From NCBI RefSeq assembly GCF_019320115.1, contig NC_089588.1, forward strand, positions 120,711,707 to 120,775,706: 64,000 nt of DNA, read 5' to 3'. Positions within the stretch are counted from its first letter, which is position 1; each line of letters begins with the position of its first letter. The DNA is from Miscanthus floridulus (lineage: Eukaryota; Streptophyta; Magnoliopsida; Poales; Poaceae). The notes beneath the pieces were generated by a model, which had not been told where the DNA came from, made no database searches, and worked only from the letters and a program-made list of their open reading frames with translations. Below, one piece after another: positions 2,313 to 58,408 of this stretch. Both the position numbers and the translations under genes were made by a program.

Positions 2313-3372
2313 CACCGCTATAAAAAGAAACATGCTTCATGATTAATAGAGGTGGATATTTTTAGGAGCCGCCCCTGTAAATGGTGACGCTGGTCTCAGG
2401 TAGATGCCCGTCCCTGTAAATCATCTACTAGTTCCATCCTACAGAGACACCATTTATGGAGGCAATCATCTTACGACATTTGCCTCTATTTAATTAACAG
2501 TGGCAGATATTGTAAGGGCCTGCCTCATGAAATCGATTAGCAGAGAAAGCACTCTTAACTGGCCGTCTCTATAAATAGCTGTATAAAAAATAATTCATAA
2601 TTTTTTATACGAAGTTGGATAAAGACGAACTTTATACCATAACAATAATAGTGGATACTTTTTATTTAAAACTATTTAAAGTTCTAAAATTTTGATTTTC
2701 AGTTCTTAAATTTTGGCATTTAAAATTCAGAATTTTCAAACAACCTGGATGTTGACATTGTCCATACTTTTTTAGGTGACATGTTTTTATTTGAAGATGT
2801 TTATTGTTTAGAATCCTAAATATGTGTTTAAGTTCTTAGATTCTAAAAAACAGAATTTAGAATTTTCAAACGACCCTGAATGTTCATCTTGTTATTAACA
2901 CCGAAGTAGTAGTGGTCACCCGATCAACAAGTTTGTAGTTGATTAGTTTTTTAATTGAAAATCTTTGGAGTTTCAAATATTTGTTTTAAGTTCTCATATT
3001 TTGATATTTTAATTTTTTTTTAATTTTCAAATCATCGCTGATGGAGACACATCCTATACCAAATTTATAGTGCTTGATGGGATTTTAAAACTTTATAGTT
3101 GAAAGTTTTTTTATTTGAGATCATTTAGTGACCAAAATATTCAATACAAAATTATGAAATGTTTAAAACAAAGGATAGTGTCCTATGTATACTCATAAAT
3201 GATTGTGTAGTGCATTGGTAGGAAAATATTGTTTGTGTTGAAGGTAATTGGTTTGAATCCTAAAAGACATTCATTTTTTTTATTTTGTCTTTATTATTCA
3301 ATTTAGGCGGACATGACCTTTGTAAGTGGGCCATTAACAGTGCCCACCTCTATTATGCTTCATGTACTAGTG
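2313..3372. mobile_element. Decayed non-autonomous CACTA element
   Basis: The right end reads GTACTAGTG, the reverse complement of CACTAGTAC. The left end is a mutated CACCGC. Both ends carry ATTAATAGAGGTGG-like subterminal sequence in inverted orientation. Three-base direct repeats ATA flank the element (2310-2312 and 3373-3375), as expected of CACTA insertions. The interior is AT-rich and has no gene. The mutated left terminus lowers certainty. Confidence 0.5.
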
Positions 3373-10132: not shown

Positions 10133-11901
10133 CACTACCGGAATGAGGAAGTTTGCCGTGTGCCCACGGCACACGGCGAAGCCCAAAAAACACTCGATAA
10201 AGCCTTTGCCAAGTGTTACACTCGGCAAACGGCACTCGACGTACACAGAGTCGGCAAATATTTCTTTACCGAGTGTTTTTTATCTGGCGCTCGGCAAAGA
10301 CTTTGCCGAGTGTTTTTTAGGCACCGACACTCGGCAAAAAAAATTCAAAAAATATATAAAAAAAAACCGCCGCCACCTCCACCACGCGGCTCGCCCCGCC
10401 GCTGGCACCACGCGGGAAGCCCCGCCGCTGCTCACCACCGCCACCACGTGGCTCGCCTGCTGCTGCTCGCCCGCCGCTTCCCGCCTGGCCCGTCGCCGCC
10501 ACCACCACCTGTGTAAAAAACAGAGGGAGAGGGAGGGGAGGGGGCGGCGCTGGGAGGGAGGGGAGGGGGCGGCACCGGGAGAGGGAGGGGAGGGAGGGGA
10601 GGGGGTGGCGGCGGGAGAGGGAGGGGAGGGGCGGCACCGGGAGAGGGAGGGGCGGCGGCCGGGTGCTTTTATAACCTGCCGAGTTTGTCGAGTGTCGGAT
10701 CGAGGACAATTGGCAAAGCTGGCTTTGCCGAGTGTCAGATCACAGCACTCGGCAAACTAATCTTTGCCGAGTGTCTAGGGTTTGGGGCACTTGGCAAATA
10801 TATTATTTATTTTTTTATTTCCTTGTTTTCCATAACGTGTTTTTCCTTTTTTGTTCGATGTACTTTGAAAAAACCTTGTCAAATTGACTCAACAATATAT
10901 ATATATGATTTTTCTACGAATATGATTCAATTATTTTATGCAGTTACTGCTCAAATTTAATTTATATCAATTAAAATTTTATAATTGCACTTAATAAATT
11001 AAAATTATCAAACGGATCCAAAAATTTACCAAAATTTCACATGAAACAATCTATGTTCTCTATTACCTATACAAAAAGTTTTGAAGTCAAACCCAATTCG
11101 ACTGTCACTTTGACACCAAATCTTACCGATTCCTTCTCAACGCTACGATTCTTCTTCTGAGATGCTTCGGTTTGTACACATCGTACGTGACAAATTGTGC
11201 GAAACCTTCTCAATTTTTTACCATAGCCTCCACGTATGATATCATCACATCATAACAAATCTCATGATGTTCAAACTTCGTTTCCTTTTTTAGAATTTAA
11301 AACCCATTCGGCCACACGTTCGTGGTCGTGTTTCCTGAACAAGATGTTTGAAGTTTCTTTTCATTTCCCGAATAAGGCCTCACACTGGACTCAATAACAT
11401 TAATATCATTTTTCTACTCATTTTATTCTATTATTTGAATCACTTACAGTTTAAATTTGACTTATACAAAAAATTCCTAGAAATACAATAAATTATTTAA
11501 ATATAGCAACCAGATCCACAAATATACCAAATTTTAACATAGAATACCACATGTTGTATGTTGAGAGTAGAAAAAGTGTCAAGGTCAGAAGAGAAAAAAA
11601 AATAAAATTATTTGCCGAGTGCCAAATAGTTACACTCAGGAAACATATTTCTTTGCCGAGTGCTAGACAATTACACTCGGCAAACATATTTCTTTGCTGA
11701 GTGTCTAGTTTTGCCGAGTGTTTTTTTTCTAGTTTGCCGAGTATCGAACTTTGCCGAGTGTTTTTTGCATCGTTTGCCAAGTGCATTTATTTTGCTGAGT
11801 GTTTTTTCGCAGCACTCGGCAAAGGGCTTGTTTGCCGCGTGCTCGAGGAAATGCACTCGGCAAATATAAAAACACTCAGCAAATAGCCAGTTTCGGTAGT
11901 G
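10133..11901. mobile_element. Non-autonomous CACTA element, TSD GGG
   Basis: The left end is CACTACCGGAATGAGG, the right end is TTTCGGTAGTG, and GGG triplets flank both (10130-10132 and 11902-11904). Both ends carry dense subterminal copies of TTTGCCGAGTG in both orientations (10150-10345, 10675-10795, 11605-11885). Between them are a GC-rich segment (10370-10660) with purine-rich gggaggggaggg tracts and an AT-rich segment. The open frames on both strands are low-complexity or made of the terminal repeats. No transposase is present, so it would depend on another CACTA for movement. Confidence 0.85.
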
Positions 11902-12294: not shown

Positions 12295-12344
12295 ACTCAC
12301 TACGTAGAAAACGATTTTTAGCAACGGTTCGATTTTTTTGTAGC

Positions 12345-12624
12345 GGCGGCTGGTGATGGAGCCGCCCCTACAGTGGCGTGCTAGGGTGCCCAGACACCAG
12401 CCGCCCCTACAAATGGAACAGCAGGGGCGGCTGGTGTTACGAGCTGCCCCTACAAATGGGGTCTGATTTGTAGGGGCGGCTCAATCACCAGCCGCCCCTG
12501 GAAATGGTATTTGTAGGGGCGGCTGGTGATTGAGCCGCCCCTACAAATGGCCCCGTATTTATAGCACCGATTTGTAGGGGCGGCTCAATCACCAGCCGCC
12601 CCTACAAATGCCCCCCATATAAAA
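12345..12624 (+). promoter_or_regulatory. Element A 5' subterminal array and TATA box
   Basis: About ten copies of GCCGCCCCTACAAAT alternate in orientation, so pairs can form hairpins. The last copy ends at 12610 and TATAAAA follows at 12618-12624. In Spm, TNPA protein binds subterminal repeats that overlap the promoter, so this array is probably both the transposase-binding region and the control region for the TNP2 gene. A 5' UTR intron probably runs from GTAAGA near 12769 to the AG directly before the ATG at 13367. Confidence 0.65.
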
Positions 12625-13366
12625 TAGATGCAGCTCCTTCTTCCTTCTCGGGTCACTCACTCCAACCCGTGAAAAAAAGGTGGGGAGGCCTTGGGCACCT
12701 CCCAAAAATTGCTCTACTAAGGGGGGAGGTTTTGGTCTCAAATCCTTTGGTGGAGAGGTTGTAGAAGGTAAGAAAATGCTATTCCAAACTTTTTTTTGAA
12801 GTTTTAATGGTTGGTTAGTGAGTAATTAGAGTTTTGTTTTTCTCTCTCTTCTATGGTGCTTGAGCTATTTATGAGCAAATTAGACCCAACTTTTAAATGT
12901 ACTAGGGTAAATTAGGGAGGGGAACAAGATCATACCCTTATTTGGTCCATGTTTCTTGATTTTAGTGAACCATTAGTTAGTTTTATGGATGTTTCATGTG
13001 CATGTGATCTAGATCTAGGGTTTGGTTTTTTTATTAATTTTGTTTTTGTAAATTTATGTTTGATAAAATTGGACTAGGGTTTGTATGAAAGATATTGGGT
13101 AAAGTATAATTATTGCTAATTGTTGTCTTTGAAATTGTTTATTGTAATCAATAAATATGTATTTTAATTATTTATGGATAAATGGGCCATTAATTAATTT
13201 TTCTCTACCATGGTGTGTTTGTATGCTTCATGTAATTATATTAGATTTATATTCATATATATCTGAGGTATATACAATTATTCTCAAATAATTATTACTT
13301 TGATTCATTTTTATATATATCTGAATAAGTAGTCCTTTAATGTTTGTTTTGTTGTTGTTGTAAAAG

Positions 13367-16300
13367 ATGGAGTATAGGAATTCTTGGATGTATGGTTCGT
13401 TAAGGTTCAAGACAGGTTTCCGTGAAGAGGTGGATAAATTTATTGAAGCCGCAACGAAGCATGCAATGACATTGAAAGAGAATAAGGATATAATTATTTG
13501 CCACTGTAAAGATTGCAAGAACCGTATGGCATGGACAGATGTGACTATCATCATATCACATTTGATTATGCGAGGATTTGTTGATGACTACACAGTGTGG
13601 ATTCATCATGGTGAAATGGTTATTGTTAACGACGAGGATGAGGAGGAATACGACGACGAAACCATAGATTCCATGTCCCAATATTCAGCAGAGCTTGATG
13701 CACGAATGGATTTTGAGTTTGGCAATGAACAAGGTGGTGATACTAGTGGTTGGGATGGTAACGACGAATGTGGTGCCAATAATGATGGTGGAGCACGTGT
13801 CGGAGTTGAAGATGATTTAGATGACATGATTCGAACCCTTGGACCAGAGATTTTACTAAATAGCCCGAAAGGTCTAGAAAATTTGGAAAGAGTGACAAAA
13901 GCATCAAAGGAGACTGTGTATGGTGTTGAAAAGGGTTGTCCGACACATTGGACATTACTACGTTTTGTGCTTGAGCTGCTCATCCTGAAGGCTAAGTACG
14001 GCTGGTCAGACTGTAGTTTCAATGATCTATTGCATCTCCTGTCATGGGTGCTACCACAACCAAACTCAGTTCCCGCCAACACGTACCAAGCGAAGAAGGT
14101 CATAAGTCCATTGACAATGGGGGTTGAAAAAATACATGCATGCCCCAACCACTGTATACTTTTTCGTGGCGAAACGTTCAAGTCATTAGATAAATGTCCC
14201 CGGTGTGGGGCCAGCCGGTACAAGAACAATGACCTTTACGGTGGGGACGAACCATCCACGGGGAAAAAGAGGAATAAGAAGGGTACAAAAAAGGTGGTAC
14301 AAGAATCTTAGCCCCTAGAGGACACTCCATTAGGCAACGATGCAAAGCAGAGAAGAATTCCTGCCCTGGTAATGTGGTACCTGCCAGTGACCGACCGCTT
14401 GAGACGTATGTTCCTAAACCCTAAAGAAGCCGCACTCATGACATGGTGGGATGATGAGCGCAAGGTGGATGATGATAAGATTGCACACCCGGCTGATTGT
14501 AGTCAGTGGCAAAGGTTTGATGAGAAGCACAAAGAATTCAGCGATGACCCAAGGAATGTACGGTTTGGCCTGAGCACCGATGGAATGAATCCCTTCAATG
14601 AGAGGATGAGCAACCACAGCACATGGCCAGTGATCTTGACCATGTACAACATTCCAACATGGTTGTGTCAGAAGAGAAAGTACCTTCTCCTTACTATTCT
14701 TATTTCTGGCCCTAAACAACCAGGCATTGATATAGACATGTTCCTCGAGCCCTTGATGCAAGAAATGGAGAGGCTATGGAAGCATGGGGAGCAGATGTAT
14801 GATGCGTTCCGAAAGGAGGACTTCATATGTAGAGCAATAATATTTGTTACTACCAATGATTACCCCGCGCTGTTTGCTTTGTCTGGACAGATCAAAGGAA
14901 AGACGGGATGCTTGGTTTGCTTGGATGGTACTACATGGGTGTACCTGGATGCATCCAAGAAGATAGTTTACCTAAGGAACCGACGCTTCTTAAAGACAAG
15001 TGATAAGTACCGCAGCAAATTATTCTTTAGATTTTATGACAACGCCCCGGAGATTGAACCCCCTCCGGAGAGACGTCATAACGGAGAACATGTGTACAGA
15101 ATGGTGAAAAACATACGCGTCGTCTATGGAAAGAAGAATCCGGATGGGACCAACAGAGATAGAAGCACACCTCCTGTCGAAGGCATACCTTTCAAGAAAC
15201 AATCGATCTTCTTTCAGTATCTGCCTTATTGGCCAGACTTGGAGGTCCCCCATGCCATTGATGCTATGCACGTGCAGAAGAATGTCTTTGAGAGTCTCAT
15301 TGCTACCTTGATGGACATAGGCAAGTCAAAGGATGGTCTGAAAGCACGGAAAGACATGGTGCAGCTAAACGTGATGCCACAGCTTCACCCGGTACCTGAG
15401 GCTAATGGAAAATACACTCTACCCGCGGTGTGCTTCAACCTAACACCAGACGAGAAGAGAGCTATATGCACTTTCCTGAGGGGGGTCAAAGTCCCGACTG
15501 GGTTTTCAGCAAATGTGAAGAAGCTAGTGTCGATGAAGGACTTGTCAATAACACACTGCAAGGCTCACGATTGCCATGTGATGCTGACAGTGTTTCTACC
15601 TATTGCAATCAGGGCTATAAAGCTAGAGTTCTTGAAAATGGCCATCACCCGCATGTGCTACTTCTTTTCGAAGATCTCACAGAAGACGATTGGCAAGGAA
15701 GAGCTGAGTGACCTATATGAATTTGTGGTGGAGACACAAAACCAACTGGAGATGTGTTTACCTCCTGCTTTTTTTGATATAATGCCACATCTCATGATTC
15801 ACATGGTTCATCAGATACAGGCGCTTGGCCCTTGCTACTTGCATGAAATGTGGTCATATGAGCGGTTCATGTCGGTTTTAAGTCGATACGTGCATAATCG
15901 AGCATACCTAGAGGGCTCCATGATAGAGGGTTACAGTACTGAAGAAGTCGTCGAGTGCTGTCAAGAGTACCTAAAAGTACAGAAAGGGATTGGTAAACCC
16001 GATTCTCGTCACAAGGGTAGGCTGGCTGGGAAGGGCACCAGTGGTAGAAAAGTGTTCATCGACCATGATTACAAAGAGGTGAGTCGGGCGCATTATAGTG
16101 TCTTGCAGAGTACACAACTGATGCAACCGTATATTGATGAACACTTGGCTATCATTATGGCAGAGAGAAATGGCCGTTCGGATGATTGGGTCATGAAACA
16201 GCACAAGCAACGACTAACTACATGGTTGAAGGACCAAAACATACCGCCTGAAGAAACCATAGACTCTATTACCATCAGTAGGTTGGCGGATGGGCCATCG

Positions 16301-16867
16301 AGACAAGTGACATCTTGGAATGCTTATGACATCAATGGGTACACGTACTATACCCACGCAAAGGATAGTAAATATGTGAACCAAAACAGCGGCGTTCGAA
16401 TAGAGGCTCTCGATGGATTAGGGCGAAAGATCCAATACTTTGACATCATTGAAGAGATATGGGAACTTGACTATGGAAGGGATATAACGGTGGTCCTGTT
16501 TCGATGCCGCTGGATCAAACAACACCAACTGAACGAGATCGGATTGAGAGTCCTGGACCTTGAGAATCTAGGCTACCAAGATGACCCTTGGGTGCTCGCT
16601 TCACGTGTCGCACAAGTTTTCTATATGTCTGACCCACAAAGTAACCTCCCCCCGAAGAAGAAGACAAAGCACGTGGTTGCCTCCGGGAAACAACACATTA
16701 TTAGAGTCGATGGCGTGGATGATGTTGAAGCTTACAATAAGTACGATGAGATGCCGCTATTCACAGACTTTCCTAAGAAGATCAGTGTTGTCGAAAAGAA
16801 CCTCCCCAAAGACATAATGCCATGGGAACGAAAAGGTGTCAAATGGAAAGTCATTACAGCGGGCTAG
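13367..16867 (+). pseudogene. TNP2-like CACTA transposase, one in-frame TAG
   Basis: One continuous reading frame of about 1,166 codons is broken only by a TAG at 14309-14311. The frame is the same on both sides. The first part (314 residues) holds the transposase-associated domain, with WMYGSLRF near the start, a C-H-C-x2-C cluster (CHCKDCKN) and a W-x-HHGE block, followed by an acidic region. The second part has the TNP2 core (LSTDGMNPF, STWPV, HAIDAMHVQKN), a DUF4218-like region (FFDIMPHLMIHMV, YERFMSVL..YVHNRAYLEGS) and a DUF4216-like end (IIEEIWELDY, LFRCRWI). The product would cut element ends. The ATG is chosen because AG of a splice acceptor directly precedes it. Without readthrough the catalytic part would need the ATG at 14372. 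Confidence 0.88.
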
Positions 16868-17957
16868 CTAGTTGTTGAACGTGGAGTGTTTGTGTAAGTG
16901 TGTGTTTGTAAGACTTCATTTATGCATGCGTGTGAGACTATATATTTATGTACGTGTGTAAGACTACATATTTTTGTATGTGTATGAGACTACATTTTAT
17001 GCATGTGTGTGAGACTACCCTTTGCAACATCCAGATGACTCTATTTGAACATCCACTTTATTACTACAAAATTTCATTTGTCAAAGTTTGAGCACTTCAA
17101 ATTGTCAAATTTAAAAAAATGACAAGTTCAAATGAGATTTTCAACCACTAAATGTTTTTGAGCTGAAAAAGTGATGAATACCAAAGTTGTATAACTCATC
17201 AAGATCTATAACTTTTATTTTGATCATTTCTTTATCTGACAAAGTGATAGTAAACATTGTTCATAAATCAACATGTTTCTCGTATAGTTCATGAAACTAT
17301 GAGTCATGTGAATTTATGAACAATGTTTACTAAAACTTTGTCACATGAAAAAGTGACCAAAATAAAAGTTGTAGATAGTGAGGAGTTCAACAACTTTTTT
17401 GTTCACGACTTTTATTGTTGAAATCATTTAAGGTTTCAAAATCTTGTTTGAAGTTGCCATTTAGTGAAATTCAAAATTTGAACTGTTCAAATTTTGTCAA
17501 ATGAAAATATGATCAAAATAAAAGTTGTACATATTGATGAGTTCTACAACTTTGGTATTCATGAGTTTTTCATGTGAAATCATTTACTCTTTCAAAATAT
17601 TGTTTCAAGTTGAAATTATTTGAATTTCAAAATTTGAATCGTTCAAACAAAGTCACATGACAAGATGACCAAAATAAAAGTTGTACATGTTGATGAGTTA
17701 TAGAACTTTTATGTTTACAACATTTTCATTTTATTTCATTTAACGTCATAAAATTGTATTCGAAGTTTTAAAATTCAAATTTTTAATTTTTGTTTTTTTG
17801 TTTTCTATATTGTTTTGACTACAATTGTTTATATATATATTTATTCATATATAGAATAATAAAAAATATTATATTTGTGTATATACACAATTTTTTTATA
17901 TTACTTTGTGTTTTTATGATATAAAAAATATAGAATTTATAATTTAAAAAAATATAT
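16868..17957. other. Element A AT-rich spacer with degenerate repeats
   Basis: The 3' flank of the TNP2 gene starts with tgtgtgagact-type repeats (16890-17020). From 17040 to 17760 there are several degenerate copies of a unit containing aataaaagttgtacat and ttcaaaattt. A similar unit, with ttgtagatcttgag, occurs inside the small CACTA at 47290-47880. No open frame is of interest. Confidence 0.5.
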
Positions 17958-18095
17958 TTGTAGGGGCGGTTGGATCAGGAACCGGCCCTAAAAATTCATT
18001 TGTAGGGGCGGCTGGATCAGGAACCTCCCCTACAAATGCATTTGTAGGGGCGGCTGGATCAGGAACCGCCCCTACAAATGGTACCTAGTATAAAT
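17958..18095 (+). promoter_or_regulatory. Element A internal copy of terminal array, with TATA box
   Basis: Three paired copies of TTTGTAGGGGCGGYTGG and its inverse CCGCCCCTACAAATG lie between the two genes. The last copy ends at 18080 and TATAAAT follows at 18089-18095, the same spacing as at the element's 5' end. This is likely the promoter of the second gene and is probably bound by the same protein as the ends. The spacing is seen directly; protein binding is inferred. Confidence 0.65.
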
Positions 18096-18183
18096 AGGAG
18101 GGAAGCGCACGGGAGTCATCGTTTGGGCGCTGTCTTCTTCCTCCGACGCCGTCAGGCTGCCTAGGGTTTCCACCGCCGGTCCC

Positions 18184-18587
18184 ATGCCCGCCGACACCCG
18201 CACCCGGTCCCCGGCGCCCTCCCCCGCGCGCCGACCCCCGGCGTCCCGCGCCCGGCCCCCGGCGCCCTCCCCCACGTGCCGACCCCCGGCGTCCTGCCCC
18301 CGGCCCCCGGCGCCCTCCCCCGCGCGCCGACCCCCGGCATCCCGCGCCCGGCCCCCGGCGCCCTCCCCCGTGCGCCGACCCCCGGCGTTCCGCGCCCGGC
18401 CCCCGGCGCCCTCCCCCGCGCGCCGACACCCGCACCCGGTCCCCGGCGCCCGCCCCCGCGCACCGACCCCCGGCGTCCCGCGCCCGGCACCCGGCGCCCG
18501 CCCCCGCGCACCGACCTCCGGCGTCCCGCACCCGGCCCCCGGCGCCCGCCCCCGCACGCCGACGACACGCGCCCGGCCCTCGGCTCA
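18184..18587 (+). repeat. 48-bp GC-rich minisatellite, open as 16-residue repeats
   Basis: About eight copies of a 48 bp unit (core ccgacccccggcgtcccgc) begin directly downstream of the internal TATA box. Because 48 is divisible by three, frames stay open on both strands. The plus frame from ATG 18184 repeats a Pro/Arg/Ala unit with PPAPSP. It may be the first exon or leader of the second gene, with a possible splice donor at 18588 (cag/gtttgt), or only a repeat. Confidence 0.7.
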
Positions 18588-18599
18588 GGTTTGTTCCGT

Positions 18600-20680
18600 C
18601 CCTTGAACCTTCTTCTTGTCTTCAGTTGTAATATTTTTTCACTGTCATGTGGGTATCTATCTATTTTAGAATAGATGTCCTTGCAATATCTTCTTGTCTT
18701 CAGTTCCTTGCAACTTTTGAACGCGCTTCTGCAAATTATGTGGGTATCTATCTATTTTAGAATAGATGTGCTGTCTCGAGACACCTTGTTTTATTTTTCA
18801 AAGTTCAAAATTTGGCTAGCCTGTTCTCACTGATTCCTTTATCGTGCAATGTAACACATGGAACTCGGGTATGTAGTTGACACCTGTTAACTGATCTTAT
18901 GAGGCTGAATTCACATAACGTTGTTCACAGTTACGTTTGTTTCAGCACGAGCTCCATTATTGTGTAAATAATAATTACAGATTTGCGATCATGTAAGTTT
19001 CGGTTAAGTGTCAGTGCTCATTTCAGTTAAGTTTTGGTGCTCATTTTTTGTAGTGTTTCGGTGCTCATTTTTGTAGTACTATTATTTGTAGTGTTTCGGT
19101 GCTCATTTTTTTCAGTGCTCATTTCAGTTCAGTTTTAGTGCTCATTTCAGTTTCAATTTCAGTGCTATTTTCTGAATGTGAACTAGTTTTAGTGCTCATT
19201 TGTATTGTGCTCTAGAATTTCAAGTTCTAAATAATGGTCTATTGTTGTGATGACTTGTAGCTAGTTTCTTGACTCGCCTCGAGTAACTGGTAAGCTGCAG
19301 TTGGTTACTTATTGCCACCTAATTGAGACATACTGAAAACCTGAACCTAGACAAACTGTTAGCTTGTGCATGTGGCTCTTGGATGGTACTATCAGATTAA
19401 ATTGACTTCATTATTTTTTGCTGGTTAAAAGAATGAGACATGGAAGTAAAATCAATTACCAATCACATATATTTCCATGTTTTTAGACTGCACCTAGAAT
19501 GATTAATTAATAGCACTAAATTGAAGAGGAAATGTCATTAGCAGATGCCAATGTCAGTTCCACACTGCTATCACAAGTTTTTACAGATGTATTGATCAAA
19601 GCCTTGCTAACCTATTTGCATAATTATTGGTAATTTGCATAATTACTTGGCTTATCGGCTTACCGATAGTACTTGCCTATCGGCTTACCGATAGTACTTG
19701 CCTATCGGCTTCCTGCATGGCAGCAGCAGCCCACAGACGTGTTGGTAATAGTCTATTCATGCATTATCTAGTGTGAAGTGAAACTGCATTGGTACTAGTC
19801 TATTCATGCATTACCTAGTGTTGTTTTCTGAACTGCATTACAGGGCACTAGTAAGTCTATTCATGCATTGGTACTGAAAGTAACTATGCTAAGTGTCTGT
19901 AGTGTTGTGTCAGTACTATTAAATTTCTAAAAACTGGATAGTGGTCATTTCAGCTAAGTGTCAGTGCTCATTTCAGTTAAGTTTCAGTGCTCATTTTAAT
20001 TAATTTTCAGTGCTCATTTCAGTTCAGTTTTAGTGCTCATTTCAGTTCAGTTTTAGTGCTCATTTCAGTTTCAATTTCAGTGCTATTTTCTGAATGTGAA
20101 CTACTTGATGCTGTGATCTACCTAATGTTGTGATCTACCTGGTACCTGAATGCTACTAGTTACTGCATTGATGTGTCTTAGTTTCAGTTAAATTCCAGTT
20201 ACCTGATACCTGAATGCTATTGCCTAATACCTGATACCTGAATGCTACCTGATGTGAGAGTTATCTAAATGCCTACAGTCATTCCACTGTTGTTTTTCAT
20301 GAACTGAATGCTAGTGCGTGTGAGTGTCTATAATCAACATTTAGAGCAACTAAATGTACATGTGCATTGATTAGTTACTGAGCTTCATTGGGAATAAGCA
20401 ACTAAATATACTCTAACCAGGCAATATTGTGGCAAGATCAAGGCAAAATAATTCAAATTATTAGGCAATTTTTACATCATTCTTCTATAATCTTTCTTTG
20501 TTTTTTCTGTTCTTAGATTGCAGGTTAGTTTCGCTTTCTCTGCTTTTCCCAATGATATTAAACTACTTTCCATTGCTAAACAAGTTGTAACCACATCTAG
20601 TGCACCTGCTACTACTATAGCCACTACTAGCTACAGTTGGGCAGTATCAGGCTGAGATCGGCCACTATAAGAAATTAATT
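18600..20680. other. Element A long intron-like region with short repeats
   Basis: No coding sequence is recognisable. Repeated phrases gtgctcatttcagtt occur at 19010-19150 and again at 19945-20080. A 26 bp unit CTATCGGCTTACCGATAGTACTTGC, whose ends are inverse copies, is repeated at about 19665-19715. The region probably is the first intron or leader of the second gene. Confidence 0.4.
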
Positions 20681-20689
20681 GTGTTGGTG

Positions 20690-21360
20690 GTAATGTGCTT
20701 GCTGGCTGCTGGCTGCTGGCTGGTACCAGTGGCTGCTGGCTGCTGGTTGGTCTCCTACAACTCCTATTACTACTACTTGCTACTCCTACTACTACTCTAC
20801 TACTATACTCTCCTCTACTCCACTCTACTCCTCTCCTCTCCTAAGCAGCTTTTGCTACTTCTACTACTACTCTACTACTTCCCTAATACTACTGTTTACT
20901 ACTTCTACTTCTGTCTTCTATCAACTACTGGCTGCTGGCTACTGGCTGGTCTCCTACAACTCCTATTACTACTACTTGCTACTCCTACTACTACTCTACT
21001 ACTATACTCTCCTCTACTCCACTCTACTCCTCTCCTCTCCTAAGCAGCTTTTGCTACTTCTACTACTACTCTGCTGGTTGGTCTCCTACAACTCCTATTA
21101 CTACTACTGGCTGCTGGCTGCTGGTTGGTCTCCTACAACTCCTATTACTACTACTTGCTACTCCTACTACTACTCTACTACTATACTCTCCTCTACTCCA
21201 CTCTACTCCTCTCCTCTCCTAAGCAGCTTTTGCTACTTCTACTACTACTCTACTACTTCCCTAATACTACTGTTTACTACTTCTACTTCTGTCTTCTATC
21301 AACTACTTGTACTTCTCTCAACTAATTCTACTACTTCCCTACTACTACTGTCTACTACTT
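20690..21360. repeat. Pyrimidine-rich tandem repeat, ~199 bp and shorter units
   Basis: The phrase ggtctcctacaactcctatt recurs at about 20749, 20948, 21079 and 21127, each followed by ctactactactc microsatellite and ctcctctcctaagcagc. Long frames here translate to Leu/Tyr/Ser low complexity and are not genes. Confidence 0.8.
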
Positions 21361-21455
21361 CTGATTGTCCAATCTGCCTATTAGGTTCAGAAGATATTAA
21401 GCATATGATGTTCATGTGTGATCGAGCAAAGTCAGTATGGCAGCTGTTGCTTTTT
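21361..21455 (+). pseudogene. LINE zinc-finger (zf-RVT) fragment
   Basis: About 30 codons read CPIC..EDIKHMMFMC..AKSVW. This is the C-x2-C, H-x4-C and A-x3-W pattern of the zinc-binding region at the C-terminus of plant LINE reverse transcriptases. Nothing else of a LINE flanks it. A ttgggaagcagc/ctttttttt phrase follows in three tandem copies to 21630. It appears to be a captured or inserted scrap inside the CACTA element. Confidence 0.6.
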
Positions 21456-21957
21456 TGGGAAGCAGCACCTGCTTTTTTTTGCCAAATCTCCCCTCTCCTC
21501 TATTTTTGCCGCCTTTCCTATCCTCTATGTTTGGGAAGCAGCAGCTGCTTTTTTTTACACCTTTTCCTCTCTATGTTTGTTAAGCAGCTGTTGCTTTTTT
21601 TTTGCCAAATCTCCCCTCTCCTCTCCTCTCCTTTGTTTTGTCGATGATGAAATTGTCCAAGTCCATACATTATATGGAATATGAGCTGATGATCAAGAAC
21701 TTGTGAGGAACTTGGCATCATTAGCAACCGCCCCTACATTACCTTCTCCTCTCTTCTCTGTTATGATGCCTTGATGCTCCAAGTTCAAGATCAGATGATG
21801 ATTGACATGTTTCTGAGGCCTCTACCACTGCTACTTCTCATTTTTTATATTGTTGTTTTATAGGACTACTTTGGTTTATAGACCTTTTTGATTTCTTATA
21901 CCTTCTCGCGTACCTAAAGCACACTTTCTTGCATCTTTTAGAACAAAGCTCGAAATA

Positions 21958-24900
21958 ATGTCGCGGACAACAGACAGTGTAGCTCGATGCCCCAAGCATG
22001 ATGAGCAGCCAACCCTTGAGGAGCAAGCACTAGAGGACCAGCTTACTCAGGAACAGTTTGATAACGAGGTAGAAAAGGATCTAGAAGTGATGCTTACTCA
22101 GGAGGAGTGTGACGAGGAGGAAGGCCCCGAAGGAGAGGCTGCTGAAGGCGAAGAAGAAGAGGATGATGAGTCAGAAGAGGGATATGAAAGTCCCGAGGAT
22201 CCTTTCCCACCTGAAGCAAGAAGGAGGCCAACGGAGGAAGATTTCGACAAGGATTTTGACCCAAACGAGGAGGTAGGGAAGAAGCCTTAGCATGTAAATT
22301 TTGCTAAAGCTTTGGCTATGTTACCTCTGATAACACTTTGACCTGTCCTATATACAGGTCCCTCCTGAAACTCAGAAAAGACAACGTCGACGTCCGCGAC
22401 ATCTCGCTGGACAAGACGGAGTAGAGGAAAGGAGAGCAGAGGCAACAACCACAGAGATGGATCACGATGGCTCTGCTCAACAAACTCAAGACACAACCAT
22501 GACTACCAAGCCTAAGAGGAAACGAGGGGATAGAAAAGGAAATCTATATCCAGATAAGGCTTGCTATGTGATAACGGAGGTTGGGCCAGTAGGAGAGATC
22601 CTTGAGCCAAAGGAATTAAGAGGACGATTCCGTAATGCGACCGGGGCCCTAGTAAGAGATAAATTGAACCCAGCAATCCCTAACTAGAAAGAGGTACCAG
22701 AGAACATAAAGAATGCACTATGGGATAGGCATCTAAAGGTCAATTTTAGATTTCCGGAGGGTAAGCACGAATTGGTAAAAAAAATACTATCAGGATGATG
22801 GGAGAGTCATTTCGACGTTGGAGGTCGGAGCTCAACACGAAGTATATCCAAAAGGGGTTAACTCCCTTCAACGAGTTTGGCAAAATAACTCCTAGTCAAT
22901 GGGAGGAGCTTGTGGCTCAGAAGACTTCAGCGGAGGCATTGGAGCTTAGTGCCCGTAACACCGAGCTGGCGAAGAGGAACAAACACCACCATCATCTAGG
23001 CCCCGGTGGCTACTATGCCAAGGAAGAGCAATTTAGGAAGATGGATGAAGAGGCCGCAGCTGCTGGGAATATCGATGTGACGAACTTGAAGGTATGCTCA
23101 AGGAACTGGATATACGCGAGGAGTACAAAACCATCCGGCAGTAATCTTAAGTTTGATAAGCCGGAGACCCAAGAGGCAGTATCAAGGATACTGAAATATG
23201 CTGAAGACAAAGAGACAGGCTCATTCAATCCTTCTAGAGAGAGGGACGAGCTTAGCCTTGGCTTGGGAAACAAGGAGCACACAGGCCGCACCAGGGGGCT
23301 AGGGAAAAGGATGACCTGGAAGCAAGGATTCGAAGAGGACAGGCACATGTACAAGAAACATGGCCGAGACCGGGAGACTAGTCTTGAGCTCCAAGTGAAG
23401 GCTCTAGTTGCGAAGGCGCTGGAGGAGCAAGGAATGTCTACGGAGCCACGTATATTAGTGACGCCACCGGGAGAACTGGCATTAGCTGACATCCCTCCGA
23501 AAGTTCCTAGCAGCCAAGGTTCCACTGCAGCCACAAGCCCAGTCGATCTCATACGGGAACCTACTAGTTGCACCTTGGTGTTTCTCAGCGGCCGGCAGAA
23601 CCCTGTGATGGAGGTGGCAACGGTGTGGCACATCCTCCAGGTGGCTTACACCACAATAATAAGATACCGCCGGACCACACTAGGGTCGAGGTGCATACAG
23701 TGAAGCCCGAGTTCATGCAGTGGAGGATAGACTACGCAACTCCCGAGGGGCTGGTGTTACTCGGAGACGTTATGGGGCAGTTCATCCTTTGGCACAAACG
23801 GGACATTATATTGACTGCTTCTTCGCCGCCTCTCCCTCTCCCAAATTTGGAGCGAGTTGTTGAGGACGGGGAGATATTTTCACCGTCTCGTGACCCCCAC
23901 ATTCCTGAGATGCCACATTCTTCCCCGCCTCCTATCGAGCATGTGCCTGATGAGATGCCACAACCTTCTCCAGCTTGTACCGGGCAAGTGCATCATGAGA
24001 TGCCACAGTCTTCTCAACAAGCACAACCGATACATGAACAACGAGTGCCTCCTGAAGAAGGTGATGCACAACAAGATGAGGACGTGCCTGAATGGGAACT
24101 CCGAAAGAAGATTCCAATCAACATAAGGCCAGTTTATGTTCCGATCAAAGACGTCTCGTCGGTGTCCAAGTGGTATTCCCATGATCAGTTCAAGCCTGAA
24201 AACCAAGTTAAAAAAAGTCCCATCACGGGGTTCTGAGGAGGCCATCAGTAGCAAACTCCACCAAATTGCAAAGCAGTATCCAAATGTTGATGCCATCGAA
24301 TGGTCAAAGGATTGCCCGAAAAAATATGAAAGAGGCAAGCCCTTCCTACCAAACCGGGACATCCAGCGCCTACCACTTGGAATGAGAAGGTTCCATGATT
24401 GGTACTTGCGTGTTCTCCCAACGAGCATAGATATCATACAAGCATGCTTTCCCACCGGCACATTTGGAAGCCCAGCCAGGAAAATTGTCTTTGACTTCAA
24501 TGACATGCACACATGCTTTCACCTAGGAGAAATGGAGATGAATCTAATTCGCACATGGTGCCTGTAAGTCCTTGTCCTCCCGATATGATATGAATGTAAT
24601 CTTTGAATTATGTTGTAACTAACCCACGCCGTGATTTGTAGAATGCAAGTGCACATTGTCAAACAAATGCCAAGTGTGAAAGCCGGGTATGTAGACCCTC
24701 AAGCTATAGCCCAAACAAATTTTAATTACCCTAAACGGTGGACACTGGATGCCAAAGAGCTAGCAGCTACAAAGACTCTTCGGGAGAAAGAGCGCATCCG
24801 TAGTGCGAAGCTAAGGGAAGAGTCCCTTAAGGTTGCGGCATACATTGCCTTGGCTTTCAAAAATCTCCAACACCACTCTACTATATGGCTACCATACAAC

Positions 24901-25754
24901 TTCGAGTAAGCTCAACTCTATACTTAAAGCTTTGTTCGATATATTTCATTCGATGCAAAAGGGCTTATCTAGTTCTATGATTAAATCCATGCAGCAACAA
25001 CTGGATTTGTATAGCCGTCGATGTCGGGAGGAGCATGGCATGGGTCTTTGATTCATTAGATAAGGACACGGTGACATAGAAAGACTTCATATCGATTCTC
25101 AAGACGTATACATATCGACAATCCTCATTAGCTTATATGTTTGTATACATACTTGTAACGTTCACTTTTGGATACTAACAAGTTGTATTTGCTAAAATAA
25201 TTCGAACAGGGCATTTAGGTTCTATGTCACTAATCATCATGGAAGGCATGATCCAGCAAGGAAGGAAAAGCTGGCTATAAAAACACTATGTGCGATAAGT
25301 GTAACTAAACATTTACATGGCTGTACTTCGTTACATGGCTGTCAAAAGCATTACTAAACATTTTCATATGCAAAACACACAGTGCCCCAAGCAGAAGCCT
25401 GGGAGTGTACATTGTAGATACTATATATGTTCTATGATGGGTAACACCGGTGCCTACAGGAGACACCCCTTAAGGGTAAGTTTGAACCTCTTCACCTATA
25501 GTATAAAAAATTCATAAATGGTATGAAATACTAAACCGAAACTTGTTTTCTTGTAGTGGAGAGAAGAGAAAGGAATGAAAAGAGACCCATACAAGGATGA
25601 CCAACTCTTAGAGCTCGTCGGCGACCTTTGCAACTTCATATTGGACCAGATTGTACACGTCAGAGGCGCCTACCATGACCGAGAGTCTGAGTTAGGTACA
25701 AATCCTCAGTACCAACACCTTCGTGAGACAGAAAGGCTAGCTCTAGGACGTTGA
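21958..25754 (+). pseudogene. CACTA second gene, transposase_24-like with degraded Ulp1-like end
   Basis: Exons, in order: an acidic Asp/Glu-rich exon (21958-22290); a Lys/Arg-rich exon (from about 22358) ending at an in-frame TAG (22685-22687); and the transposase_24/Ptta region (22795-23600) with the family phrase EHTGRTRGLG near 23276. A region with LVLLGDVMGQFILW follows, then Pro-rich repeats with E-M-P-x-S. The exon at 24136-24567 ends at a GTAAGT donor. The exon starting at 24642 ends near 24908. Later short exons include a Ulp1/C48-like block HCRYYIC (about 25412) and a terminal exon to TGA 25752. The frame also slips at an eight-A run (22777-22784), where one extra A would restore it. 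Related genes encode a DNA-binding partner of TNP2. The exon joins are partly inferred. Confidence 0.7.
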
Positions 25755-26341
25755 TAACAATGTGTATGGAATTTGTATATTTAATGATGGATTGTATATA
25801 TTCATGTGAAATGGACTTGTAATTGTAGTTTATAGAATACTCTTATGTTTGTAGTCGCGGTCGCGGGGTGTTCGGCAATGCGAACGCTGGTCACGGGGCG
25901 TTCGGCAACGCGAACGCGGTTCGGAACGTTGGTTGTGGGACGTTCGGCAAAGCGATTTTGAATTGAAAATTTGATTTTTTTTTGCGGGAAAACATACTGT
26001 AGGGGCAGTTCTAGATTGAACCGCCCCTACAAATACCCGTTGGTAGGGGCGGCTGGTACTACAGCCGCCCCTACAAATCGATTTGTAGGGGCGGCTGGTG
26101 TTTCTAGCCGCCCCCTACAAATTGATTTTTAGGGGCGGCTGGTAATAAGAGCCGCCCCTACAAATAGATTTGTAGGGGCGGCTGGAAACACCAGCCGCCC
26201 CTACAAATCGATTTGTAGGGGCGGCCTGGGAACCGCCCCTACAAATGCATGATTTGTAGAGACCCTTGCGTAGGGGCGGCTGGGTAAACCGCCCCTACAA
26301 ATGGTCTACAACCACCCCTAGAAATGCTTTTTGACGTAGTG
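25755..26341 (+). repeat. Element A 3' subterminal array
   Basis: After a GC-rich stretch of gttcggcaa(c/a)gcgaac repeats (25855-25950), about a dozen GCCGCCCCTACAAAT copies in both orientations occupy 25995-26330. They run up to the terminal GACGTAGTG. Unlike the 5' and internal arrays, no TATA box directed at a gene follows. Confidence 0.8.
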
Positions 26342-26508
26342 ACTCAGGGGTTATCGTCTTGATTCCCAATTTTGCTTAGGTAAAATTTAATCTTTGCTTT
26401 TCATCTTTTTGTAAAAAATTATTGTCTACTTCCATAGCTATTTGCTAACATCAAAAATAATAAATTGTTTAATTATTTGGTAATATGTGTTTTAATATTT
26501 ATGCAGAT

Positions 26509-28957
26509 ATGAAGAGAAACTTGGATATTGCATCTCTTTTTCAAAAGCACACAGCAAAGAAGGCGGCGGCGGCTACTGCTACATCTAATCATTTCCCTGA
26601 TCCGGTTGAACCTTCTAATTGTTCACCTGATCCAGTTGAACCAGTGGTGGAAGAGCATAATCATGAGAGAGTAATTGAGGAAATTGGAAATCCTATGCCA
26701 CCGCCATAGCCCCAGCCACAGCCACCGCCGTCTTCGCTGCCACCAGTTTATGACATCAATCACCTTCCACATGATCTAGGTGAAAGACATCCCATTCTAA
26801 GTTATCCGGTTAATGATCAAGATATAATTCGAAGAGCATATATTATTAAAGGTCCATTCAAACCTTTTGCACATGATTTCCAAAAAGAAGGATTTCAGGC
26901 AAGGATCGGGGATTCAATTATTGTTGGATGTACAATCATGATTGGCTTGAGTATAGTATTAAGAAGAATGTTGTGTTTTGCTTTATATGCTACTTTTTCA
27001 AGAAGGGTACTAGGTCAGACAAATTTACTGTTGATGGAAGAATTGGAACATAGAAGAGAAAGCACTTCTCAAACATGTGGGTTCTAAGGCACATATTGTA
27101 GCTCAAGAGAGATACATTGGCTTTAAAAATCCCAAGGTTGCAAATGATTATAATATTGAGAAGTGAAGTGACGAGGATCTTCGTCTTTATAAGAAAAAGG
27201 TTGACTTATTCACTTAGGTGTATCAAGTTTCTTTTGCATCAAGGGTTGACATTTCGTGGACATGATGAAAGTGAAGAATCTAGCAACAGAGGGAACTTCA
27301 TTGAACTTTTGAAGTTTCTTGCCGGAAATAGTGAAGAAGGGGACAATGCTCCAGGTAACTGTACCTTAACTAGCTCAGACATACAAAAAGCAAATTATTC
27401 ATCGTTGTGCCATAGAAACTAGAAAGAAAATAATTGAAGAACTTGGTGATGAGCCCTATGCAATTTTAGCTGATGAGTCTAGTGATATATCACATAAAGA
27501 ACAACTAGCTCTTTGCTTGTGTTATGTTGATAAATTGGGGAGACCATGTGAGCATTTTATTGGAGTTGTTCATGTAGATGATACTACCTCTTTATCACAT
27601 AAGCATGCAATTGAAGCTTTACTTGTTAGTCATGGCTTGAGTATGACTCAAATGCGTGGGCAAGGATATGATGGGGCTAGCAACATGAAAGGAGATATTA
27701 AATGGTTGAAAACATTGATCATGCAAGAATCACCTTCTGCTTATTATATTCATTGTTTTGCTCATCAACTCCAATTGGTTGTTGTTGCTGTTGCCAAGGA
27801 AAATATTGATTGCAAGACTTTTTTTATCAAATATCTATATTGTTGAATATTATTGGAGTTTCTTGTAAGCGTTGTGACATGCTTAGAAATGCTAGGCTTG
27901 AGAATGTCAAGAAAGCACTTGATTGTGGTGAAATTGAATTTGGAACCGGATTACATCAAGAGATGGGTTTGCCTAGACCTGGAGATACTGATGGGGATCT
28001 CATTACAAAACGGTATGCAACATCATTACTATGTATGAAGCAATCCATGATGTACTGGTTGATCTTGGGGATGATCCTTCATATAAGGATGATTGGACCA
28101 AAATACATTTTGTGATTGGAGCGTTTGAGACCTTTGAGTTTGTTTTCTTTACACACTTAATGTACATTATTCTTGGATATACAAATGAGTTATCTGAGTG
28201 TTTGCAAAGAAGGGACCAATATATTCTTAATGCAATATCACTTGTTAATGTGGCAAAGACAAGAATGCAAGAATTGAGGTCTGATGGTTGGAAAAAATTT
28301 CTTGAGAGGGTCACTTCATTTTGCGATAAACATGGTGTTGAAGTTCCTGCTATGGATGATGATTATGTTCCTTATGGAAAATCAGCAAGGAAAGCTCGTG
28401 CCCAAAAGCAAACCAATGATGACTACTTCAGAAGAGAATTATATATTGATGTCATTGATCAAATAAGTCAAGAACTTGATAATCGATTTGACGAGATTAA
28501 TATGGAGTTGTTGTCTTGTATGTCGGCCTTCAGTCCTTCCAATTTATTTGCTTCTTTTGATGCACAGAAGCTATGTAGACTAGCTGAGTTCTACCCAAAG
28601 GAGTTCTCAAATAATAATTTGCTCAAACTTGAATTGTAGCTACATAATTATATTGATGACATGAGACAGGATGATAGCTTCAAAGGTCTAGACAATATTA
28701 TTGATCTCTCAGTTAAGCTTGTTCAAACAAAGAGGCACAAAGTGTATGATATGGTTTATTAGCTCCTCAAATTGGTATTGCTTCTACTTGTGGCAACGGC
28801 AAGGGTTGAAAGGGTATTTTTTGCAATGGTTTTAGTGAAAACAAAGTTAAGAAATAAGATGTGAGATAGTCTTTTAGATGATTGTCTAGTCATTGAGCGG
28901 GATATTTTCTTTGAAATTGATGAAGATGATATAATCAAGGCATTTATGTCCCTTTGA
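26509..28957 (+). pseudogene. hAT-type transposase with TTF-like domain, decayed
   Basis: The ATG follows a splice acceptor (gcag/atATG), so a 5' UTR intron begins near 26380. The start MKRNLDIASLFQK, then RRAYIIKGPFKPF and, in another frame, WLEYS, match plant transposases of the TTF-zinc-finger/hAT type. Further blocks are ILADESSD (27460), GQGYDGASNMKG (27659), YIHCFAHQLQL (27744) and a C-terminal dimerisation-like block with ARVERVF (about 28800). Breaks include TAG at 26707, a shift near 26900, TGA and a shift in an A-rich run near 27165-27200, a shift near 27830, TAG at 28637 and 28760, and TGA at 28868. It cannot make a full protein. Confidence 0.8.
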
Positions 28958-46920: not shown

Positions 46921-48293
46921 CACTACTGGACACCGGCACCTTGCCGAGTGCCGGAAGCTTTGCCGAGTGTATTTTATCGGGCACTCAGCAAAGACGGTCT
47001 TTGCCGAGTGTCAAATAAAATACACTCGGCAAAAAAAAAACACTCGACAAAGATGACTTTGCCGAGTGTTTTTTTTCGGCACTCGGCAAAGATGTATTTT
47101 GCCGAGTGCCATTTTTCGGCACTAGGCAAAATACGTCTTTGCCGAGTGCCTTTTTTCTGGCACTCGGCAAAGATGTATAAAATGCGTCTTTGCCGAGTGC
47201 CTTTGTTTTGGCACTCGGCAAAGAGGCATTTTGCCGTGTGTATTTTTTTTGGCCCTCGACAAATCATTTTTTCAAAGTAATTTTTGAGGCCCTAAATGAA
47301 TTCAAATGAAAAACTTTTCAACTACAAAGTTGTATAACTTCTCAAGATCTACAAAGTTTATTTGGGTCATTTCTTCATTTGACAAAGCGACAATAACGTT
47401 GTTCATAAAATCTATATCTTTCTCATATCTCTCATATTAGTTTCATGAAAGTAGAAGAGAGATATATAAGATTTGTGAACAATGTTACTACTACTATGTC
47501 GGATGAACAAATGACCAAAATAAACTTTGTAGATCTTGAGAAGTTATAAAATTTTATAGTTGGCAACACTTTGATTTGAAATCATCTTGTCATGCAAAAA
47601 CGACGTTTGAATTTGAAAATTTGAAAATTTGAATTTTTGAAAAGACCTCGGATGGAAAAACTTCCTAAATGAAAATTGTAGGTCTCCAAAAGTTATAAAA
47701 CTATGTAGTTGACAACTTTTTGATTTGAAATCATCTTATCATGCAAAACTACGTTCGAATCTCTCAAATTTGAAATTCGAATTTTTCAAACGACCTTGGA
47801 TGGAAAAACTTCATAAATGAAAATTGTAGATCTCAAAAAGTTATGAAACTTTGTAGTTGATCACTTTTTGATTTGAATTCGTTTAGGACCTCAAACAAGC
47901 ATTTACTCTCGGTTTAATATAATATATGAGGATAGATAACGGAATCTAGGACACAAGTAACAGTGTTGTGCAGTGGTAGAGCAGCAGACACACGAGGAAG
48001 ACGTCGTGGGTTCGAATCCCGTTGGCCGCGTTAGCCGTGAATTTTGCGCAAACAATGCAGCGACTTCGATGGAGACGGATGGGCGCTGGCCGGTGGCGGC
48101 CTCCCCGAAAAAAATTGCTATTATTTTTGGGTTTTTTTTCGCATTTTCATTTTGGCGAGTGTAAATCTTTGCCGAGTGCTTTTCCCAAGTGCCCGATAAA
48201 AAGCACTCGGCAAAGATTTCTTTGCCGATTAATTTTTTGCCGACTGCCCTTTGCCGAGTGCGGCACTCGGCAAAGTGCCGGTTTCCAGTAGTG
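46921..48293. mobile_element. Non-autonomous CACTA element, TSD TAG
   Basis: Begins CACTACTGGACACCGG and ends CCGGTTTCCAGTAGTG, with TAG on both sides (46918-46920 and 48294-48296). Subterminal TTTGCCGAGTG arrays lie at 46943-47265 and 48150-48275. The middle (47290-47880) has repeats of ttgtagatctyaaaaagtt and a tRNA-like stretch at about 47970-48025. It has no transposase. Confidence 0.9.
47965..48025 (+). other. tRNA-like stretch with pol III A and B boxes
   Basis: cagtggtagagcag (A-box-like) is followed 25 bp later by gggttcgaatccc (perfect B-box). The spacing and sequence are those of internal pol III promoters in tRNA genes and SINEs. A full cloverleaf cannot be drawn, so it is a tRNA relic or SINE head captured inside the CACTA element. 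Confidence 0.5.
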
Positions 48294-52976: not shown

Positions 52977-53157
52977 CACTACGGGAGACGCGTTCTTTGC
53001 CGAGTGCTTGGCGCTTTGTCGAGTGTCAAAACACGGGCACTCGGTAAAGAGGCCGTTTGCCGAGTGCCGCACTCGGCAAAGCAGGCACTCGGCAAAAGCC
53101 ATCTTTGTTGAGTGCCAAACACTCGGCAAACGTCCTCTTTGCCGAGTGTCAGGCACT
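52977..53157. mobile_element. Left end of a CACTA element, split by element B
   Basis: Begins CACTACGGGAGACGCG, preceded by AGC. TTTGCCGAGTG repeats in both orientations follow. The array stops at 53157, where another CACTA begins within it. The rest of this outer element must lie beyond the right edge, if it still exists. Confidence 0.75.
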
Positions 53158-53189
53158 CACTGGTGCAGCAAGGCTTTTTGCTCCCGGTT

Positions 53190-53400
53190 GGGAAACCCCT
53201 TTAGTCCCGGTTTCCTAACCGGGGCACCAATCCGGGACTAAAGGTACCCTCCTTTAGTCCCGGCTTGACGCCCGGGACTAAAGGGGGACCTTTAGTCCCG
53301 GTTAGAAACACCAATTGGGAGTAAAGGGGGCCTTCAGGCCTGGCCAGGGACCGCCACGGGGCAGGACCTTTAGTCCCGGTTGGAAACACCAACCGGGACT
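53190..53400. repeat. Element B 3' subterminal array
   Basis: CCTTTAGTCCCGG and CCGGGACTAAAGG copies, some paired as hairpins with caccaa loops. They are interrupted by one divergent GC-rich insert at 53328-53365. Confidence 0.85.
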
Positions 53401-53649
53401 AAATGTCCCTTTTTTTTTTCCTTTTTCTAGTTTCTATTTTTGATTTCTTTTTTCATTTGATGATTAGTTTTGATATTAAAATACATTTTCGAATACGCTG
53501 CTAATAGTAATATATATGTGTACTTCGCATGCGTAACTTTTTGTCCGAACTTTGTACATAAATAACAAACGAATATACGCGTACATGCAAATATATATGA
53601 TGATCATATATATACACACGTTATTTTATGTACATATAATATGTGCATA

Positions 53650-53684
53650 CATACATACATACATATATATATATATCTATATAC

Positions 53685-53742
<58 letters not shown>
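53650..53742. repeat. CATA/TA microsatellite
   Basis: acatacatac then (TA)n to 53742, directly beyond the 3' end of the element B second gene. Confidence 0.9.
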
Positions 53743-53746
<4 letters not shown>

Positions 53747-53943
53747 TGTTTATGTCCTTAGCAATTCACTCCTCCAGATTTGGCATCCACGTTTCGTTCG
53801 GGTCATTGTAGAACTCACCGTTGGGGTTGATGACCTGGTCATTTATAAATCATGCTATAGTCTCTCGAATTGCTTTAAGTTGGTCAAGTCGTATGACTCT
53901 TTTCCTCAACCATTCAGTCTTCAATAAAAGTTAAAGAAAAAAG

Positions 53944-53949
<6 letters not shown>

Positions 53950-54022
<73 letters not shown>
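53950..54022. repeat. (TA)n microsatellite in an intron
   Basis: About 35 TA units followed by gtatgtatgtgt. Confidence 0.9.
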
Positions 54023-54030
<8 letters not shown>

Positions 54031-54599
54031 GTATTGCTCATGTAATTACTTATACAAATGAGAGCAATAAAGAAATTATAAATATACGATCGAAATAATA
54101 TAAAGAAAAAAGTATTTATATACGTACTTTGAGTTGCTCTTCAGGAGTTCTCTTTGAGTATGCCATGATGAACTCGCAAACATAGTATCCACAGTAGTTG
54201 TTACCCTGCTCCTGCCTTAGAACCCACTTTTACGACAAAAAAATTAATTAGGGTCAATTGAAATCATCATATGGTGTTAATTGAATATAAATGTGTAGTT
54301 ATAGTACTTACTTTGTGTGCGATTACACCCAATTGAGCTTTGCAATGTTTCATTTTTTGTTCCTCAACGAACCTTTTCCAAACCCTGCTCACAATAAAAT
54401 AAAAAAATAATTTAACCTTTAATAATTGTTGAGAGATCGGCGCCATTATATATATATATGTTGTTATAGAGAAACTAAATTAATTACCCTTGTATAATAT
54501 CTATCATGTCTTGATACTCCGTTTGCGGTTTTCTCAACGAGTCTAAGATTTTCAATCTACTATTGGCCATATCGATGACCATCAATATCCAGTGATTGC

Positions 54600-54705
<106 letters not shown>

Positions 54706-58265: not shown

Positions 58266-58408
58266 GACGAATTCGCCCTAGCGAGAACGACAATTCGCCC
58301 TAGCGAGAACGACAGGGCGAATTCGCCCTTGAACGACGAATTTGCCCTAGCGAGAACGACGAATTTGCCCTGTCGTTCTCGCTAGGGCGAATCATCGTTC
58401 TCGCTAGG
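58266..58408. repeat. Repeats of cgccctagcgagaacgacgaatt, some inverted
   Basis: Four direct copies and two inverted copies of a ~22 bp unit make a strong local hairpin around 58340-58400. Confidence 0.8.

Follow-up and report, generated by a model that had tools for sequence, protein, structure and literature searches.

CACTA transposons are abundant in grasses, and in maize Spm the tnpA and tnpD transcripts originate from one common 5' promoter, which is accompanied by repeat arrays and a GC-rich leader. A 64,000-nucleotide stretch of the Miscanthus floridulus contig NC_089588.1 (positions 120,711,707 to 120,775,706 of the forward strand, in the following called the window) contains a CACTA element, element A, in which the repeat array of the ends is found a third time between the two genes and directly in front of a TATA box. 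This raises the question of whether the second gene of such an element is controlled separately from the first. Judging from the layout, we consider it rather probable that a separate promoter drives the second gene and that an operator matching the element ends places this gene under the control of the end-binding protein. The relevant parts of element A are the following, all on the plus strand:

12298 to 26341: element A, CACTA transposon of 14,044 bp with the ends CACTACGTAGAAAACG and CACTACGTCAAAAAGC
12336 to 12609: 5' subterminal array with 10 half-sites and four dyads offset by 25 bp
12618 to 12624: TATAAAA, putative promoter of gene 1, 8 bp past the 5' array
13367 to 16867: gene 1, tnpD-like, with Transpos_assoc, Transposase_21 (tnp2), DUF4218 and DUF4216
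16868 to 17955: AT-rich intergenic stretch, 25% GC, containing a 156-bp tandem repeat
17956 to 18079: internal array, proposed operator of gene 2, 6 half-sites, three 40-bp dyads with a period of 42 bp
18089 to 18095: TATAAAT, proposed promoter of gene 2, 9 bp past the internal array
18096 to 18595: GC-rich leader, 84% GC, CpG observed/expected (o/e) ratio 1.15, with a 48-bp tandem repeat and a donor-like site at 18587
21958 to 25754: region of gene 2, tnpA-like, several open reading frames (ORFs), end of the gene set by eye at about 25754
26020 to 26325: 3' subterminal array, 14 half-sites

End repeats inside element A

The terminal repeat of element A, GCCGCCCCTACAAAT, recurs inside the element as the internal array. 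Counting this motif with up to 3 mismatches over the whole window gave 34 sites compared with 1.23 expected, and none of 100 shuffles reached 34. Ten of the sites belong to the 5' array, 6 to the internal array and 14 to the 3' array, while 4 are located outside A. The initial annotation had stated that the repeat of the internal array is the one at the element ends, which is confirmed by this distribution, and both arrays and their TATA boxes were located in the sequence at the positions it had given. The direct neighborhood of array and TATA box also stands, but the gaps reported as 7 and 8 bp have to be corrected to 8 and 9 bp, measured from the final base of the motif (12609 and 18079), because the following G had been counted into the array.

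Each internal dyad is composed of a half-site, a 10-bp spacer and a second half-site, and the tandem repeat formed by these dyads has 92% matches. The dyad offset is exactly 25 bp in four of four dyads of the 5' array and in three of three of the internal array; the six dyads of the 3' array have offsets of 25, 27, 26, 26, 21 and 22 bp. TATAAAW occurs five times on the plus strand of A (12618, 17920, 18089, 25276 and 25502), and the copies at 12618 and 18089 are those that follow the arrays; seven others lie on the minus strand. Next to the 3' array TATAWA is absent within 20 bp on either side. A single degenerate half-site with 4 mismatches (ACCGCCCCTACATTA, 21727-21741) is situated within what is presumed to be the first intron of gene 2.

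The initial annotation had described the terminal array plus TATA box as duplicated in front of the second gene. A duplication of the terminus as one block has to be ruled out, as the sequences following the two arrays are unlike and the 10-bp dyad spacers differ between them. An alignment of the 300 bp past the 5' array with those past the internal array reached a score of 18, compared with a mean of 16 and a maximum of 24 in 200 shuffles. When the three internal dyads were compared with five terminal ones, the half-sites agreed at 389 of 450 positions and the spacers at 87 of 150, with each spacer scored in whichever orientation matched better and with terminal dyads of 40 bp only, so that five of other lengths were left out.

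Element A shows the CACTA features that were examined, with the exception of the family match of its second gene, which is below the cut-off. It is flanked by a target site duplication (TSD) of ACT, present as equal 3-bp flanks at 12295-12297 and 26342-26344. Gene 1 is interrupted in this copy and consists of two ORFs that share one frame and are separated by a single stop codon (14309-14311).

The same layout in three element families

Two further CACTA elements of the window, B and C, which the initial annotation did not mention, show the same layout with different terminal repeats. All of their features are on the minus strand:

10133 to 11901: element B, CACTA, 1,769 bp, TSD GGG, terminal repeat TTTGCCGAGTGT
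10684 to 10798: internal array of B, made of its own terminal repeat, 6 half-sites with at most 2 mismatches
10667 to 10673: TATAAAA of B, 10 bp past the internal array
10360 to 10667: leader of B, 76% GC, CpG o/e 0.73
53158 to 64000: element C, CACTA, extending beyond the window, with CTTTAGTCCCGG as its repeat and the end CACTGGTGCAGCAAGG inside the window at 53158
60180 to 63592: gene 1 of C, tnpD-like, several ORFs, with Transpos_assoc, Transposase_21, DUF4218 and a sub-threshold DUF4216
59505 to 59667: internal array of C, four dyads, offset of 25 bp in four of four, periods of 42, 44 and 40 bp
59487 to 59493: TATATAG of C, 11 bp past the internal array
58940 to 59488: leader of C, 74% GC, CpG o/e 0.98
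55567 to 57718: gene 2 ORFs of C, of which 56181-57176 is related to gene 2 of A
53199 to 53404: subterminal CTTTAGTCCCGG array at the in-window end of C, 7 half-sites

Terminal inverted repeats of the type CACT[A/G] together with a 3-bp TSD were found in A and B, the elements with both ends within the window, since only one end of C is included. The tnp2-type transposase domain PF02992 is present in A (E 9.2e-68) and C (E 7.5e-70), and arrays of short direct and inverted repeats accompany both ends of A, both ends of B and the in-window end of C. On its own strand, B is composed of a 5' array, AT-rich DNA, the internal array, TATAAAA, the GC-rich leader and the 3' array, and its internal dyads have offsets of 24, 21 and 22 bp and periods of 42 and 39 bp. 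In C, the tnpD-like gene is followed by AT-rich DNA, the internal array, TATATAG, the leader and the second gene, so that A and C alike have their internal array placed after the tnp2 gene and before the second gene, with both genes on the same strand. Gene 2 of A and gene 2 of C are related, with 69 identities in 239 aligned columns (E 1e-22), and the motifs GCCGCCCCTACAAAT, CTTTAGTCCCGG and TTTGCCGAGTGT are unlike, with ungapped matches at only 5-7 positions. Related second genes in combination with unlike motifs indicate that the internal array tracks the ends of its own family in each case. According to the initial annotation, related full-length elements without an internal array would speak against its proposal; this point is answered in part by C, which carries both genes, exceeds the window and has the array.

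As for A, the half-sites of C agree better between internal and terminal dyads than the spacers do (90 of 96 and 25 of 52 positions, four internal dyads against one terminal dyad), and the half-site motif is kept while the remaining array sequence drifts. This bears on the idea that the internal array is a functionless relic, the old end of a fused or nested element that gene conversion has kept alike. The identity of its motif with that of the ends fits such an origin, and so does the spacer common to all three internal dyads of A, a sign of local tandem amplification. Nevertheless, we regard a relic as very improbable: half-sites are better kept than spacers, the sequences flanking the 5' array of A are unlike those flanking its internal array, a terminal-repeat match above chance is missing near every internal array, and three families would each need such a relic at an equivalent place.

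The distance between the internal array and TATAWA is 9 bp in A, 10 bp in B and 11 bp in C, and if the 5' array of A is included, a binding-site array stands 8-11 bp directly upstream of a candidate promoter at A 5', A internal, B internal and C internal. TATAWA is found 5-13 bp downstream of three of three internal arrays versus one of eight terminal arrays, the positive one being the 5' array of A; both sides of every array were taken into account, and for array E this comparison is unfair, because its inner flank is the inserted element C. By chance, TATAWA lies at this distance from 2,806 of 125,600 positions tested (2.2%), and only 29 of the 125,600 pass if a leader of at least 70% GC is required in addition, a line that B narrowly fails with 69%. 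The GC content is 16-26% over the 300 bp upstream and 69-84% between 20 and 400 bp downstream in A, B and C. A blind scan for clusters of 9-mers (at least 4 copies over both strands within at most 200 bp) returned 11 clusters and missed the internal array of B; TATAWA at 5-13 bp was found for three of the 11, namely the 5' and internal arrays of A and the internal array of C.

These distances also bear on a roadblock or insulator, in which an array-bound protein would keep transcription of gene 1 from running on into gene 2, the TATA box being incidental. TNPA, which recognizes the subterminal repeats of maize Spm, is reported to stop RNA polymerase from advancing when bound to the subterminal domains (PMC2613891, accessible part of the text), and the location of the array past gene 1, at about 1.1 kb in A and 0.5 kb in C, would fit. 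However, neither the TATAWA 9-11 bp away nor the GC-rich leader, present in three of three cases, would be accounted for, which makes a mere roadblock very improbable in our opinion.

The initial annotation had also proposed that each array could act as a false end from which a partial element is cut out; the internal array would then be paired with a terminus of the element. The binding motif and the 25-bp dyad offset are indeed the same as at the 5' end of A, but in A and B the internal array has neither CACT[AG] nor [TC]AGTG as an exact word within 300 bp, and the two [TC]AGTG within 300 bp in C (59444 and 59930) show no further match. Furthermore, random regions equalled the best match to the element's own terminal repeats in 31 (A), 71 (B) and 72 (C) of 100 cases. 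Since terminal-repeat matches within 300 bp of the three internal arrays do not rise above chance, this suggestion was not borne out, and we regard it as extremely improbable.

Some additional sequences in and around these elements deserve mention. Element B combines an internal array, a TATA box and a GC-rich leader within 1.8 kb and could be a mobile promoter that reads out via its 3' end. At 46921-48293 there is a short CACTA element of 1,373 bp (TSD TAG) with TTTGCCGAGTGT arrays only at both ends, whose AT-rich middle resembles by eye the AT-rich stretch of A at 17050-17750. Downstream of the GC-rich leader of C, a tandem repeat of about 30 bp was noticed by eye (58250-58930), and the start of a further CACTA element (CACTACGGGAGACGCG, with an TTTGCCGAGTG array) at 52977-53157 is seemingly interrupted by C. 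About 0.8 kb past A, two ORFs at 27117-27846 match DUF4371 (E 2.5e-16 and 7.2e-19), a domain which we take to be associated with hAT-like transposases, so that this is probably a broken one. Finally, the region 2340-3370 looks degenerate by eye, with GCCGCCCCTGTAAAT-like motifs and an inverted repeat of the AGAGGTGG type on both sides, and is perhaps an old non-autonomous element.

Proposed control of the second gene

We propose that CACTA elements of this type have two genes read in one direction, the second of which would possess a separate promoter consisting of an operator (the internal array of the own end repeat), a TATA box 9-11 bp further on and a GC-rich leader. The end-binding protein may also bind this internal operator, and the behavior of TNPA/TnpA in Spm leads us to expect that the binder is most likely the product of the second gene. 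Synthesis of the second-gene protein would then be tied via the operator to the level of free protein. At a high level, the bound array would block recognition of the TATA box, and such autorepression is the first expectation because an array ending 9-11 bp from the TATA box would hinder its recognition. In silenced copies the bound protein could open the promoter, by analogy with TnpA on maize Spm, which activates the element in correlation with demethylation (PMC10398659, accessible part). The claim of the initial annotation that one end-binding protein could control two promoters is therefore upheld as far as it can be inferred from the layout, which is present at three of three internal arrays in three families; promoter activity, the identity of the binder and the sign of control are likewise inferred. 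If the proposal is correct, it hints at the means by which the element adjusts the amount of its end-binding protein. In addition, the internal array and its TATA box would, at the sequence level, argue against the production of both proteins by alternative splicing from one promoter.

In the coding test, no frame of the leader of A stands out, as each of the three is open for more than 130 codons. In view of the donor-like site at 18587 the leader may be a first exon that is spliced onto the reading frame of gene 2. The ORF 22795-23703 of this gene has 76 relatives in the protein collection, with 82% identity at 91% query coverage for the top scorer. Among homologues of gene 2, the Transposase_24 profile gives 26.9 bits for P0008 and no match for P0002, and it does not match the three gene 2 ORFs of C. 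Gene 2 of A appears to be interrupted in this copy. A search of viral and prokaryote contig collections gave no match for the dyad pattern in either and no confirmed relative for the gene 2 alignment (viral contigs) or the gene 1 ORF (prokaryote contigs), but such collections say little here.

The CpG content of the leaders leads to a reading which partly overlaps with our proposal. The internal array might be an anti-silencing docking site, where the own protein of the element binds and demethylates the leader and gene 2, comparable to VANC. CpG o/e ratios of 1.15 (A) and 0.98 (C) are consistent with this, and the arrays are tandem and family-specific like the targets of VANC (PMC5735166, PMC10398659, both in their accessible parts). 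On the other hand, a docking site would not require the tight spacing of 8-11 bp ahead of the TATA box, the ratio of the leader of B is just 0.73, and the VANDAL elements are of the Mutator type (Mutator-like transposable elements in the accessible part of PMC10398659), whereas A has CACTA ends and a tnp2 gene. We consider a docking site of this kind, in place of a classical operator, to be unlikely.

Several points weigh against a promoter with its own operator. The sample is small, with three elements from one window, and the range of 5-13 bp behind the counts given above was picked once the arrays were known. In AT-rich DNA, TATAWA also occurs at a distance of 14 bp on the opposite flank of the internal array of A and, for the 3' array of B, at 14 and 16 bp on the inner flank. 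B is without a detected transposase domain (5 of its 10 overlapping ORFs of at least 60 amino acids were scanned and none reached the Pfam cut-off), so that its orientation is based on analogy, and its leader remains under the 70% line of the null test with a GC fraction of 0.69 (20-400 bp) and has a CpG o/e of 0.73. The genes are broken in both A and C. The ORF 22795-23703 of A gene 2 matches Transposase_24 (PF03004) only below the threshold (E 0.00079, 20.0 bits compared with a cut-off of 28.7), and the predicted model of a close relative of gene 2 fits no solved structure well. Moreover, the tnpD-tnpA pair of lettuce is reported to be transcribed contiguously, which is the opposite design (PMC8195511, accessible part). 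This indicates that a two-promoter design, if real, may be confined to some lineages.

Comparison with known systems

The closest parallels include grass CACTA elements that have a separate ORF2 whose function is unknown. They likewise combine two ORFs with complex subterminal arrays, and the accessible parts of PMC4158355 and PMC4423477 do not describe an internal copy of such an array for them. Such a copy in front of gene 2 is also undescribed in the remaining CACTA literature searched, which includes the accessible parts of PMC8978399, PMC7139988, PMC5738225, PMC5105172 and PMC8195511, most subscription papers being outside the search.

The VANDAL/VANC system of Arabidopsis resembles the present elements in its element-specific, tandem short motifs, which occur in internal non-coding as well as terminal regions and diverge by family (PMC5735166 and PMC10398659, accessible parts); on VANDAL21, the targets of VANC are located in introns, intergenic and terminal non-coding regions (PMC5735166, accessible part). 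In contrast to the elements described here, VANDAL elements are not CACTA elements, and the arrays of the window are palindromic dyads that repeat the subterminal arrays 8-11 bp before a TATA box.

With En/Spm the elements share a tnp2-type transposase gene, subterminal arrays and a second protein that binds the ends, or in our case is expected to do so (PMC2613891, accessible part). The difference lies in the way the second protein would be made: Spm produces tnpA and tnpD by alternative splicing of transcripts according to the same source, whereas here a second array and TATA box stand ahead of the second gene. Control of the second gene in CACTA elements is usually modelled on Spm, and this picture would change if our proposal is true. 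For sequenced grass genomes it predicts an array of the own repeat, a TATA box 8-11 bp further on and a GC-rich leader ahead of gene 2. On a broader and clearly more tentative level, which we put forward as conceivable but somewhat doubtful, grass CACTA elements as a whole might have left the splicing design of Spm for two operator-controlled promoters. The end array would recur before the gene of the end-binding protein, its specificity matched and its period close to 42 bp, each family would form a self-contained autoregulatory circuit in which operator and regulator change together, and short derivatives like B would spread the promoter as a mobile unit that responds to the own protein of the element.

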